The notes below the pieces were generated by a model, which was not told the origin of the DNA, made no database searches, and was given only the letters and a program-made list of their open reading frames with translations. This document shows, in pieces, positions 40,948 through 57,058 of a stretch of 64,000 nt of DNA; position 1 is the first letter of the stretch; each line of letters opens with the position of its first letter. Both the position numbers and the translations under genes were made by a program. The DNA comes from Bacillota bacterium (GTDB lineage Bacteria > Bacillota > Dethiobacteria > DTU022 > PWGO01). The stretch covers positions 1 to 64,000 of the forward strand of contig JAAYSV010000019.1 of NCBI GenBank assembly GCA_012518215.1, in the 5' to 3' direction.

Positions 40948-41763
40948 TCAGAATCCCGATATGCGGGAATTCATGTTATCTTTGCTGCCGTACAACCGCA
41001 CCCTGTCGGCGACCATGGCGATGAACTCGGAATTGGTGGGCCGGCCGCGTTGGCTGCTTATTGTATAACCGAAAAATTTCTTGATCACATCTACATTGGT
41101 TCTCTCCCAGGCTACCTCGATCGCATGGCGGATTGCCCGTTCCACACGGCTCGGCGTGGTCTGGAATTTTTCGGCGATCTGCGGGTAGAGGACCTTGGTT
41201 ATGGCTCCCAGAAGCTCGATTTCCTCCACAACCGAAAGTATTGCTTCACGCAGATAGAGATGGCCCTTGATGTGGGCAGGAATACCGATCTCGTAGAGCA
41301 TCTCCGTGATTTCTTCTTCCGGGGGCCCGCTCTGGCGGCGATGATTGGAATTATGAACAGATTCCCTGGGGGCAGATCTGTTTACCGGAAGGGGGGCGCC
41401 GTTGATCTGGCGTATTCTTTCCGCCAGAGTATCCATATCGAAAGGTTTGAGAATGTAATATGAAGCACCCAGGTCCACTGCTCTCCGCGTGATGCTCTCA
41501 TGCCCGAAAGCGGTGAGCATGATCACGCACGGCATTTTTTCCAGCGGCAGGAAAGGAAGCTGTTCCAGGACACCGATACCGTCCAGATACGGCATGATGA
41601 TATCAAGAAGAAGTACATCCGGCTCATGTTCTTCCAACAAGCTCAACGCCTCATTGCCATCGTAAGCGGACCCGACCACTTCCAGATCGGGTTCATCGTT
41701 AAGAAAATTGCTCAAAAGATCGTTGAATTCCGGGTTATCATCGGCAACAACAATTCTTAACAT
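40948..41763 (-). CDS. spo0A: Sporulation master regulator Spo0A
   Basis: This 271-residue response regulator has an N-terminal receiver domain with Asp8-Asp9 and phospho-acceptor Asp54 ([12 protein letters not shown]). A linker leads to the C-terminal Spo0A DNA-binding domain with [20 protein letters not shown]-like and [16 protein letters not shown] segments. The start is ATG 41763 behind GGAGG. Upstream are a sigma-H promoter and a 0A box, which implies autoregulation. Confidence 0.98.
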
Positions 41764-41811
41764 TTGAAAACCTCCATTCCAATTTTGGTAATTTATGTTT
41801 ACGGAGTACAA

Positions 41812-53582: not shown

Positions 53583-53722
53583 ATCCGCCGGATTTCTTGC
53601 CCGGCTGCAGAAGGCAGGGGCAGCAGATTGCGCCCCCGTGCCGGATCGATGCCCGCGATATTTAAAATCGATGGCGAGAGCGGCCCTGATACTGCAAAGA
53701 AGTTATTTTTGTTTTGGACAAT

Positions 53723-53751
53723 ACATACTCTTTTGGGGAGTATGTTTTTTT
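53723..53751 (+). terminator. Rho-independent terminator after pdp
   Basis: ACATACTC (53723-53730) pairs with GAGTATGT (53738-53745) over a 7-nt loop, followed by seven T residues. It separates pdp from the carboxypeptidase gene. Confidence 0.85.
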
Positions 53752-53791
53752 GATTTACGGGTATAGATATGAAAAAAGGGAGGTTACACTC

Positions 53792-54997
53792 TTGCGCAGG
53801 AATATCCCAACCCGTCTGGTTTTCCTCATTCTTGTCACTGTATTGTTGAATATGATAGTATTGCCCGGATTTGCCACTGCCGCTTCCGAAGAATCGGAGA
53901 AGCCGGACATCGAATTCAATTACAATGTAAAGGCTGCACTGATGATGGAGACGGACACCGGTAAAGTCATCTTTGCCAGAAACGACAGAACAAAACTGTA
54001 TCCGGCTTCCGTGACCAAGATCATGACCGTCCTTCTGGCCATGGAGGATCTCGAAGAAGGGAAAATACATCTTGATGACATGGTGGCGGTCTCTTCGCGG
54101 GCAGCATCCATGGGCGGTTCACAGTTATTTCTCAGTGAAGGGGACCGGGTCAGCCTGGAAAAAATGTTGATCGGCATCATGGTCGCTTCTGCCAATGATG
54201 CTGCAGTTGCCGTGGCCGAACATATATCCGGTTCGGTGGAGGCCTTTGTGGACCGTATGAACAGGAGAGCAGATGATCTGGGTATGAAAAATACGTGTTT
54301 CGTGAACCCTCACGGCCTCCATGATGAAAATCATTATACCACTGCCGGGGATATCGGTATCATGAGCCGGGAACTGCTGGATTATCCCCTGGTCCATGAA
54401 CTTGCGAACCTGTGGATGGATGAGCATTTCCTGGAAGATGAAATAAAGTCGGGTGGTGTCTATCTCAGCAACACCAACAAGCTGATTCGTTATTACCAGG
54501 GGTGCGACGGGTTGAAAACCGGATTTACCAACGAAGCCGATCACTGCATAGCAGCCACGGCGAAGCGGGGCGATACCCGTTTTCTGGCCATAATACTGGG
54601 TGGGGCCACCAGCGATGAACGTTACGATGCGGCACGGGCGCTTTTGAATTACGGTTTTTCCCGTTACCAATCTGTCCCGTTGGTGAAGAAAGGCGAGGTT
54701 ATCAAGGTGATGCCCGTGGAAAAGGGTGATCTGACACATGTAAACATAGTAGCCAAAGATAACCTCAGTCTTCTTTATCCCCGGGGAAAAAAAGTGGAAT
54801 TCGAAAAAGAGATACTTCTGCCCGAACACCTGAAGGCGCCACTGAAAAAAGGGCAGAAAGTCGGCGAAATAAACGCCACCTTCATGTATGAGCAGGCTGG
54901 CATTGATCTGGTTGCCGTCGAGGGGACGGCGCGGGCCGGTTATTTCAAACTGGCCGGGCGTCTCTTCTCCCTCTGGCTCAGTTTCGGGAGGAGATAG
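53792..54997 (+). CDS. dacF: D-alanyl-D-alanine carboxypeptidase (DacF-like)
   Basis: This 401-residue low-molecular-weight penicillin-binding protein has a signal peptide (about residues 1-30) and the three active-site motifs SxxK (PASVTKIM), SxN (SANDAAVAV) and KTG (GLKTGFTNEADHC). A C-terminal PBP5-type domain ends in an amphipathic helix (FKLAGRLFSLWLSFGRR) for membrane attachment. I chose TTG 53792 with AAAGGGAGG upstream. It lies one gene from spoIIAA; in Bacillus dacF is directly upstream of spoIIA. Confidence 0.93.
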   Translation: MRRNIPTRLVFLILVTVLLNMIVLPGFATAASEESEKPDIEFNYNVKAALMMETDTGKVIFARNDRTKLYPASVTKIMTVLLAMEDLEEGKIHLDDMVAVSSRAASMGGSQLFLSEGDRVSLEKMLIGIMVASANDAAVAVAEHISGSVEAFVDRMNRRADDLGMKNTCFVNPHGLHDENHYTTAGDIGIMSRELLDYPLVHELANLWMDEHFLEDEIKSGGVYLSNTNKLIRYYQGCDGLKTGFTNEADHCIAATAKRGDTRFLAIILGGATSDERYDAARALLNYGFSRYQSVPLVKKGEVIKVMPVEKGDLTHVNIVAKDNLSLLYPRGKKVEFEKEILLPEHLKAPLKKGQKVGEINATFMYEQAGIDLVAVEGTARAGYFKLAGRLFSLWLSFGRR

Positions 54998-55139: not shown

Positions 55140-56564
55140 TCAGAACTTTTCTATCAGCCCGACAATATATTTCAGAATCAAAATGGCATCGTTGACGTCA
55201 ATATTTTTGTCCCCGTTGGTGTCGGCCGCCTTCCGGTCCAGGCTTTCCAGTTCGATCAATTTCACGACATGCTTCAGCACGAGGATGGCATCTTTGACGT
55301 CGATTTTCCCGTTGCCGTCAACATCACCGATCATGAGCATCGTGGAAATCAGCAGCGCATGGCGCGAACCGGCCGAGACGCTGATCACTTCATCGTGATC
55401 TATCGCGGTCGGTACGGGGAGGTTCTCCTGGTCGGTATCGAGCCCCAGTTGCCCGAATTCATTGTCGCCGCAGGAATGAAGAGCGCCGTTCTCCAGGAGG
55501 ATGAGTGAATATTTGCCCCCGGCAGCCACCGCGGCAGCCTTCTTCACGGATTCTATCCTGGTCGGGATCTTTTTATCATCATAGCCATCATGTCCCAGCG
55601 CGCCGCTGTCCCCCCGCCCGAAGGAATAGACATCGCCATTTTCTTGCAATGCCAGCGAGTGAGAACCGTTGTAATCTCCCCATCCGGCGGCGATGGCCTT
55701 GACATTGTCGAGATTTTCGATCAACCGGGGGGTGTTTCTATCCTCCGTATCATCAAGCCCCAGCGCACCGCATGTTCCCGCCCCGCAGGAGTAAACGCGG
55801 CCTTCCTTCAGCAGCAGCGTATGGGAGTATCCGGCGGCGATGGCCTCCACATTGTCGAGGCCGATCCTGGTGGGGGTGAGCCTCTGCTTCGTATCACCCA
55901 ACCCCAATTTTCCCCTGTCGTTCTGGCCGAAAGCGTAGACGTTGCCGTTTTCAAGCAATACCAGGGAGTAGTGGAAGCCGGCGGCGATGGCCTTGACATC
56001 GTTGAGGTTGGGGTCATTGACCAATTGGGGGGAGGATTTATTCTTTTTGTCGCCATGTCCCAGCGCACCGTATGTTCCCTCCCCGCAGGAGTAGACCCGC
56101 CCGTCCTTCAGCAGCAATGTATGTGAGTAACCGGCGGCGATGGCTTCCACATGGTCAAGGTTGATCCTGGTGGGGGTGGTAACCGATTTCGCAATTGTTC
56201 CCAGCCCCAGCTGCCCCTTGTCATTCTTGCCGAAAGCGAACACATCGCCATTTTCCATCAGCACCAGGGAATGATGTTCACCGGCGGACACTTCCTTTAC
56301 GCCGTGAAGGTCATCAATTTTCAGCGGAGATCTTTTTTTCTCCCCGTGACCCAGCTGGCCTTCATTTCCACGTCCCCACGAACAGGCAACTGTCCGGGAG
56401 GCATTACTTGAAGCGGTGGAATTTGCTGCAACGATGCCATGGGCCGGGAGATGACCATGAAGGGGAAGGGGAAATGCGCCCATCATGATGAACACGGACC
56501 AGAAAACAAGAAGGAAACAACACAATTTTTTTCTGCCCACGGGCCTGCCAGTAGAGGTCAACAT
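55140..56564 (-). CDS. Secreted RCC1-repeat (beta-propeller) protein with a C-terminal dockerin
   Basis: This 474-residue protein has a signal peptide (hydrophobic LCCFLLVFWSVFIMMGAFPL). About seven RCC1-type repeats follow, with units such as NGDVFAFGKNDKGQLGLG and DGRVYSCGEGTYGALGHG, enough for a full seven-bladed propeller. The last 60 residues hold two calcium-binding dockerin repeats (DVDGNGKIDVKDAILVLKH and DTNGDKNIDVNDAILILKY). Dockerins bind cohesins on scaffolds or cell surfaces; none is in this window. GGGGGA precedes the ATG at 56564. It is divergent from spoIIA and interrupts the usual dacF-spoIIA order. Confidence 0.9.
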   Translation of the reverse strand: MLTSTGRPVGRKKLCCFLLVFWSVFIMMGAFPLPLHGHLPAHGIVAANSTASSNASRTVACSWGRGNEGQLGHGEKKRSPLKIDDLHGVKEVSAGEHHSLVLMENGDVFAFGKNDKGQLGLGTIAKSVTTPTRINLDHVEAIAAGYSHTLLLKDGRVYSCGEGTYGALGHGDKKNKSSPQLVNDPNLNDVKAIAAGFHYSLVLLENGNVYAFGQNDRGKLGLGDTKQRLTPTRIGLDNVEAIAAGYSHTLLLKEGRVYSCGAGTCGALGLDDTEDRNTPRLIENLDNVKAIAAGWGDYNGSHSLALQENGDVYSFGRGDSGALGHDGYDDKKIPTRIESVKKAAAVAAGGKYSLILLENGALHSCGDNEFGQLGLDTDQENLPVPTAIDHDEVISVSAGSRHALLISTMLMIGDVDGNGKIDVKDAILVLKHVVKLIELESLDRKAADTNGDKNIDVNDAILILKYIVGLIEKF

Positions 56565-56580: not shown

Positions 56581-56624
56581 AATATATTTTTATGATAATT
56601 ATAACAGATAATATATTTTTATGA
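56581..56624. repeat. Two direct copies of a 15-bp AT-rich sequence
   Basis: AATATATTTTTATGA occurs at 56581-56595 and 56610-56624, a 29-bp period, in the divergent promoter region of the RCC1-dockerin gene and spoIIA. A minus-strand TATAAT (56598-56603) lies between the copies and may serve the RCC1-dockerin gene. Confidence 0.8.
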
Positions 56625-56625
56625 A

Positions 56626-56667
56626 TGTCGAAAAATTTGCAGGAATAATCTCGTAGATGAAGAATTA
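56626..56667 (+). promoter_or_regulatory. spoIIA operon promoter: 0A box and sigma-H elements
   Basis: A perfect 0A box TGTCGAA (56626-56632) lies just upstream of GCAGGAATA (56639-56647) and GAAGAATTA (56659-56667). These match the sigma-H consensus with an 11-bp spacer. Spo0A-activated sigma-H transcription of spoIIA is the established Bacillus mechanism. The spoIIAA start is about 55 bp downstream. Confidence 0.85.
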
Positions 56668-56722: not shown

Positions 56723-57058
56723 ATGCAGATCAGGACAAATCGCAGGGGCCACAATCTGATCATCAAGTTGAAGGGCGAACTGGACCACCATAGCGCGAGG
56801 GAATTCAGGAAAACCTTTGCCCGGGAATGGGGAAAGGATGGGGCTCGCAATTTGATTGTTGATTTCAAAGAGGTTACGTTCATGGACAGTTCGGGAGTGG
56901 GGGCTCTAATCGGCCGCTACAAGCAGGTTGATCAGAGGGGAGGCAAGGTGGCCATATGCAGTCCGTCGAGGACGGTGGCCAGGTTGATCGAGATGTCGGG
57001 GCTGCTCCGGATCATTTCCATGTACCGGGATGAGCAGGAGGCCCTGAAAAAGATATAG
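56723..57058 (+). CDS. spoIIAA: Anti-sigma-F antagonist SpoIIAA
   Basis: This 111-residue STAS protein frees sigma-F by binding SpoIIAB. LKGELDHHSAREFRK and the phosphorylation site VTFMDSSGVGALIGRYKQV are clear; Ser56 corresponds to the Ser58 phosphorylated in Bacillus. I chose ATG 56723, behind GGGAGGG. Confidence 0.95.
   Translation: MQIRTNRRGHNLIIKLKGELDHHSAREFRKTFAREWGKDGARNLIVDFKEVTFMDSSGVGALIGRYKQVDQRGGKVAICSPSRTVARLIEMSGLLRIISMYRDEQEALKKI

Follow-up and report, generated by a model that had tools for sequence, protein, structure and literature searches.

Introduction

The protein closest in build to the one considered here is Cthe_0258/Clo1313_1971 (Doc258) of Clostridium thermocellum, a soluble protein of 51 kDa with the composition (RCC1)5 + dockerin that is listed among 73 dockerin proteins (Table 1, PMC6083626). 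The same work tested 38 proteins for stimulation of a minimal complex, and in the passages used here xylanases and mannanases are named as stimulating, with no statement on whether Cthe_0258 was one of the 38 (PMC6083626). In the literature searched, that paper alone brought up RCC1 together with dockerins or the cellulosome. A poplar table gives Cthe_0258 a ratio of 2.3 (PMC3990059), and a switchgrass table lists it as Doc258 (PMC5223564); the passages of these three papers that we drew on give no function for it. Because Cthe_0258 is in print, the RCC1–dockerin build was already known; the combination is rare, is known from a cellulose-degrading bacterium, and the protein described below is a good example of it.

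Non-cellulosomal cohesin–dockerin systems were reportedly reviewed by Peer et al. in 2009. Cohesins and dockerins are known from organisms to which no cellulose degradation is ascribed, such as ANME archaea, where the passages seen describe ABC-transporter substrate-binding proteins as the cargo (PMC9012536); the terms 'RCC1' and 'leucine-rich' are absent from the text of that paper. A secreted bacterial propeller of the RCC1 type is represented by BLIP-II, a 271-residue chain without a dockerin, and no literature was found that links secreted bacterial RCC1 proteins with beta-lactamase inhibitory protein II.

Here we describe an RCC1–dockerin gene in the first 64,000 nucleotides of contig JAAYSV010000019.1 (hereafter the window) of a Bacillota bacterium from the class Dethiobacteria, whose genome assembly (G000) comprises 2.14 Mb in 61 contigs and is 96.9% complete. 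Like Cthe_0258, the encoded protein joins RCC1 repeats to a type I dockerin, a likeness of description rather than of sequence; Cthe_0258 has five listed RCC1 repeats and belongs to a true cellulosome, whereas no cellulolytic cargo is seen in this genome.

Domain build and predicted fold

The gene (55140..56564, minus strand) is an open reading frame (ORF) with an ATG start that encodes 474 residues. Residues 56–410 (55335..56399, minus strand) hold the seven-bladed RCC1 propeller that the original prediction had proposed together with a dockerin, and both parts stand: Pfam finds seven PF00415 (RCC1) stretches in repeats of about 50 residues (299.9 bits against a cut-off of 21.7) as well as the RCC1-like domain PF25390 (296.6 bits, cut-off 150), and a ring fold is predicted for them, with fold matches to known propellers. 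The type I dockerin occupies residues 411–474 (55143..55334, minus strand), of which residues 413–467 match PF00404 (Dockerin_1) with 28.2 bits against a cut-off of 22.9. By this match and by its motifs the module is a duplicated calcium-loop/helix segment in which the Asp/Asn ligand positions are kept in DVDGNGKIDVKD and DTNGDKNIDVND. The N-terminus (residues 1 to about 46; 56427..56564, minus strand), with RKK followed by some 20 hydrophobic residues, resembles a signal peptide by eye, and the protein is probably exported. The gene gives no sign of horizontal arrival, either in GC content (0.550, against 0.519 for the window) or in GC3 (0.657, against 0.57–0.68 in three neighbours).

A single-sequence fold of the protein was poor (pLDDT 46.5) and was superseded by an AlphaFold2 model built on a 27-sequence alignment with 26 RCC1 stretches from viral contigs, which has an overall mean pLDDT of 81.7. 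From about residue 61 to 410 the 10-residue mean pLDDT is 80–98, mostly above 90, and seven strand sets are formed; with high confidence, the RCC1 repeats of this model close into a seven-bladed ring. Residues 1–55 are unstructured in the model, and the dockerin is modelled as two long helices at low confidence (pLDDT only 53–63), because the alignment contained no dockerin.

The top fold matches of the model are whole RCC1 propellers, led by HERC2 RLD2 (Z 53.1, 1.5 Å, 347 residues) and including UVR8 (Z 48.7) and human RCC1 (Z 48.5). HERC2, UVR8 and RCC1 are intracellular eukaryotic proteins, and their likeness to the model, 1.5–2.1 Å over 331–349 residues, is one of propeller fold that implies no shared function. 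BLIP-II, which is a secreted bacterial propeller of the RCC1 type, matches the sequence (1jtd, E 3.4e-15) and the modelled fold (3qhy, Z 32.8, 2.1 Å over 265 residues). By analogy with the action of BLIP-II on class A beta-lactamases, the protein could be an inhibitor of a wall enzyme, with possible targets in DacF, whose gene is its convergent neighbour, or in the dockerin-borne peptidoglycan hydrolases and proteases that may share its scaffoldins; C. thermocellum does have dockerin-borne serpins (Table 1, PMC6083626). We regard such an inhibitor as possible but unlikely, given that the propeller is nearer to its eukaryotic counterparts (HERC, RPGR, RCC1 and UVR8 rows all at Z 45–53) than to BLIP-II, that in the stretches inspected by eye for two related genomes (G002 and G012) no dacF lies beside the RCC1–dockerin gene, and that a general resemblance to RCC1 is uninformative about the ligand.

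The repeats had also been predicted to resemble each other at the DNA level, and they do. A stretch of 160 nt (55719..55878, minus strand) is 81% identical to a second one 300 bp away (56019..56178, minus strand), pairing blades 2–3 with blades 4–5. Identity between blades 2 and 4 is 75% at the protein level and 80% at the DNA level; for blades 3 and 5 the values are 58% and 78%, and for blades 2 and 3 the protein value is only 48%. These identities, together with the spacing of the match, indicate that a unit of two blades was duplicated long ago. Amplification from a two-blade fragment was observed in one protein of a propeller survey, the only such case its authors report in the passage seen (PMC9218822), and differs from the present gene, which shows a single duplication and no array.

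The dacF–spoIIA neighbourhood

The RCC1–dockerin gene is convergent with dacF (53714..54997, plus strand), which has matches beside spoIIAA in relatives, and divergent from spoIIAA (56723..57058, plus strand), which has matches in 28 of 40 genomes; downstream of spoIIAA follow what, from the gene order, we take to be spoIIAB and then sigF. Among the relatives' loci with matches to both genes, the end of dacF is no more than about 420 bp from spoIIAA in 22 of 23, and an RCC1 match between the two was found in none of the 23, in agreement with the prediction that the gene is an insertion into this neighbourhood. In the remaining locus, from a genome of the same family (G001), the gap is about 1.26 kb and contains an FMN_bind ORF (L122:6586-7119, on G001:C188), so that the gap between dacF and spoIIAA evidently takes insertions.

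The intergenic region carries candidate signals for both directions. For the RCC1–dockerin gene there is a sigma-A-like candidate promoter (56598..56625, minus strand; TTCATA-16-TATAAT, with TG before the -10) put forward from a consensus match at 10 of 12 positions, and a 15-nt perfect direct repeat (56581..56595 and 56610..56624) flanks the candidate -10 on its two sides and is possibly an operator. Between this gene and spoIIAA lies TGTCGAA (56626..56632, plus strand), presumably a 0A box, followed by what we take to be a sigma-H-like spoIIA promoter (56639..56667, plus strand) with GCAGGAAT at 56639 and GAAGAATTA at 56659. Both elements are similar to those of relatives, and the spoIIA promoter seems to be intact. 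Of the suggestion that the gene shares a promoter region with a Spo0A-controlled spoIIA operon, the shared upstream region and its 0A box hold; control of the RCC1–dockerin gene by Spo0A is not supported, since the box is one shared with spoIIA and the gene has a candidate promoter of its own, of sigma-A type and with an extended -10.

Is the gene nonetheless under Spo0A? The genome does encode Spo0A (40948..41811, minus strand; TIGR02875, 368.3 bits), with a TGTCGAA box just upstream of its gene. Among genes with 200 bases available upstream, the box occurs within that distance in 4 of 22 dockerin or cohesin genes, both RCC1–dockerin genes of the genome among them, against 4 of 177 others (p 0.006), a comparison made post hoc after the box had been seen; when the box shared with spoIIA is left out the counts are 3 of 21 and 3 of 176 (p 0.017). 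A count of 8-mers in 24 upstream stretches of dockerin and cohesin genes gave mainly A+T-rich words besides the 0A-box word, and no common promoter motif was adopted. The enrichment was not repeated in the relatives that bear Spo0A (1 of 27 in G017 and 0 of 1 in G008), and the box was found upstream of 0 of 23 dockerin or cohesin genes in relatives without Spo0A over the cut-off; eight marked places were dropped from these counts because they gave no closed gene or had too little sequence upstream.

Spo0A was sought in 12 genomes, and eight of them, although they have dockerins, gave no match above the cut-off; among the eight are G002 and G012, which carry the same RCC1–dockerin fusion, and the fusion thus needs no sporulation. 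On another reading Spo0A controls the gene, whose product would serve in sporulation or at the spore surface, the tie to spoIIA being the shared regulatory region. The 0A box, the presence of spo0A and the enrichment within the genome lend this some weight, but with a post hoc enrichment that fails in G017 and G008 and with Spo0A below the cut-off in G002 and G012 we consider it rather improbable. Since the enrichment did not replicate in relatives, Spo0A control is possible for this gene and is no rule of the system, and a spore-surface role is not supported.

The cohesin–dockerin set of the genome

The dockerin had been taken to imply cohesin partners, and the genome supplies candidates: it contains five cohesin modules above the cut-off, in four ORFs, and 23 dockerin-bearing ORFs. 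A genome without cohesins was to have refuted the idea, and that refutation fails. Two of the cohesin ORFs are adaptors that combine a cohesin with a dockerin (C49:27122-27844 and C6:91817-93076). The other two are scaffoldins on one contig, the first with two cohesins and a hydrophobic C-terminus followed by RRRKK (C15:28160-29308), the second with one cohesin, an acidic linker and a hydrophobic tail followed by basic residues (C15:29559-30281); their anchor-like tails suggest that both are membrane-anchored. Among solved cohesins the two-cohesin scaffoldin has distant matches at best (E 1.3e-6). The scaffoldin pair (L042:6161-8282) sits between rng-like and rplU-rpmA-obg-like genes, named by eye, and is another cohesin/dockerin gene set inside a housekeeping cluster.

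The 23 dockerin ORFs are 24 ORFs less two with cohesins only plus the RCC1–dockerin gene of the window. A Dockerin_1 profile search of the genome gave 18 places, to which the protein search added more; 16 of the 23 have Dockerin_1 at E 0.001 (hmmscan) and the other seven rest on the genome searches. Most of them show the same V-x-DAI-x-x-L-[RK] signature as the dockerin in the window, and this dockerin may well bind one of the cell's own cohesins.

The cargo is varied. Leucine-rich repeats occur in five of the dockerin ORFs (two on C26 and one each on C31, C49:16012 and C58), and a further fragment at the end of contig C26 looks leucine-rich by eye. Domains of peptidoglycan type are an N-acetylmuramoyl-L-alanine amidase and, in two ORFs, a glucosaminidase; CAP, a subtilase, a reprolysin-like metalloprotease and a sub-threshold trypsin-like match are also present, and the remaining matches are GLUG, Flg_new, Ig-like, DUF6273 and beta-helix. 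RCC1 repeats occur in two, the protein of the window and the one further RCC1 protein that the genome was found to encode (L055:3444-11141 = G000:C21:12443-20140), which has 2565 residues, 19 RCC1 repeats and a C-terminal dockerin-like module, and whose gene has the 0A-box word 71 bases upstream.

There is little reason to think that this set is a plant-polysaccharide-degrading cellulosome. The idea draws on Cthe_0258, which has the same build, is cellulosomal in C. thermocellum and stands in tables of biomass-raised transcripts in the parts of the papers seen (PMC3990059, PMC5223564). Pfam finds a plant-polysaccharide glycoside hydrolase in none of the 23 dockerin ORFs and a carbohydrate-binding module (CBM) at E 0.001 on none of the four cohesin ORFs, and GH9 is absent from the genome, two control genomes having matched; a search for GH48 likewise gave no match, as did its controls. 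The absence of cellulolytic cargo makes membership in a cellulosome highly improbable, and the genome's combination of cohesins and dockerins without such cargo is that of a non-cellulosomal system. In this it resembles the ANME archaea, which have cohesins and dockerins without presumed cellulose degradation in the passages seen (PMC9012536), and it differs from them in cargo that includes RCC1, leucine-rich repeats and peptidoglycan hydrolases.

RCC1 fusions across the class

At E 1e-15 the RCC1 part is matched in 23 of the 97 genomes of the class, and the view that RCC1 propellers are uncommon as secreted bacterial proteins was, for RCC1 proteins of this class, overstated. RCC1 propellers are also frequent in viral contigs, where 442 stretches encode a relative and 78 loci were kept (L124-L201). 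In G026 (C173; L114:515-4015) two tandem RCC1-repeat ORFs have similar N-termini, and the one that was scanned contains a TIR_2 domain; a sensor or defence protein is possible there.

RCC1 ORFs were read from all 23 RCC1-bearing genomes, G000 included, and an RCC1–dockerin fusion is present in five (G000, G002, G012, G017 and G055). Outside G000 the fusions have 555 residues in G002, 681 in G012, 683 in G055 and 1177 in G017, the last also with Big_5 and a cohesin; the G002 dockerin scores 19.7 with Dockerin_1 on the whole protein, below the cut-off of 22.9, and 24.1 in the genome search, above it. In G012 a single same-strand run comprises the RCC1–dockerin gene, a second dockerin gene and two genes for cohesins, and beyond it lies an amidase/glucosaminidase gene.

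Cohesins were found in all five genomes with the fusion and in 4 of the 18 without it (G008, G046, G079 and G088; Fisher one-sided p 0.0037). As the genomes are fragmented, incomplete and not phylogenetically independent, and as six RCC1 ORFs are open-ended and could hide a dockerin (L123, L235, L241, L244, L246 and L247), this association is to be read as an indication. RCC1 and a cohesin also meet within single ORFs, once in G017 and three times in G088, where L234, L235 and L237 each join a cohesin to an RCC1 propeller of seven repeats. Three other genomes (G018, G022 and G028) have dockerins over the cut-off and no cohesin found by Pfam, so that a dockerin is no proof of a cohesin partner.

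Discussion

Taken together, these observations make it probable that the gene encodes an exported, cohesin-tethered RCC1 propeller that serves as a protein-binding module of the cell envelope within a non-cellulosomal complex. The protein would be exported, and its dockerin, with calcium, would bind one of the cell's own cohesins. Export and such binding would leave the propeller held at the envelope, either on a membrane-anchored scaffoldin itself or with one of the cohesin–dockerin adaptors in between. There it may act as a non-catalytic platform for protein binding that pairs with, or inhibits, a protein of the surface or a neighbour, and the complex would also contain peptidoglycan hydrolases, proteases and proteins with leucine-rich repeats.

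A more elaborate scheme, speculative and in our estimate unlikely, is that the membrane-anchored scaffoldins bring together peptidoglycan hydrolases that act on the cell's own wall (the amidase and two glucosaminidases) along with CAP, proteases and leucine-rich-repeat proteins, that RCC1 propellers are their binding or inhibitory regulators, and that Spo0A switches part of the set as the cell passes into sporulation.

The genome, which has sporulation genes, presents a compact, non-cellulolytic cohesin–dockerin system of five cohesin modules and 23 dockerin ORFs. RCC1 propellers recur as fusions to dockerins or cohesins, and the unexplained RCC1–dockerin protein of C. thermocellum joins this wider pattern. 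The cohesins and dockerins of this genome offer a concrete set of testable pairs.
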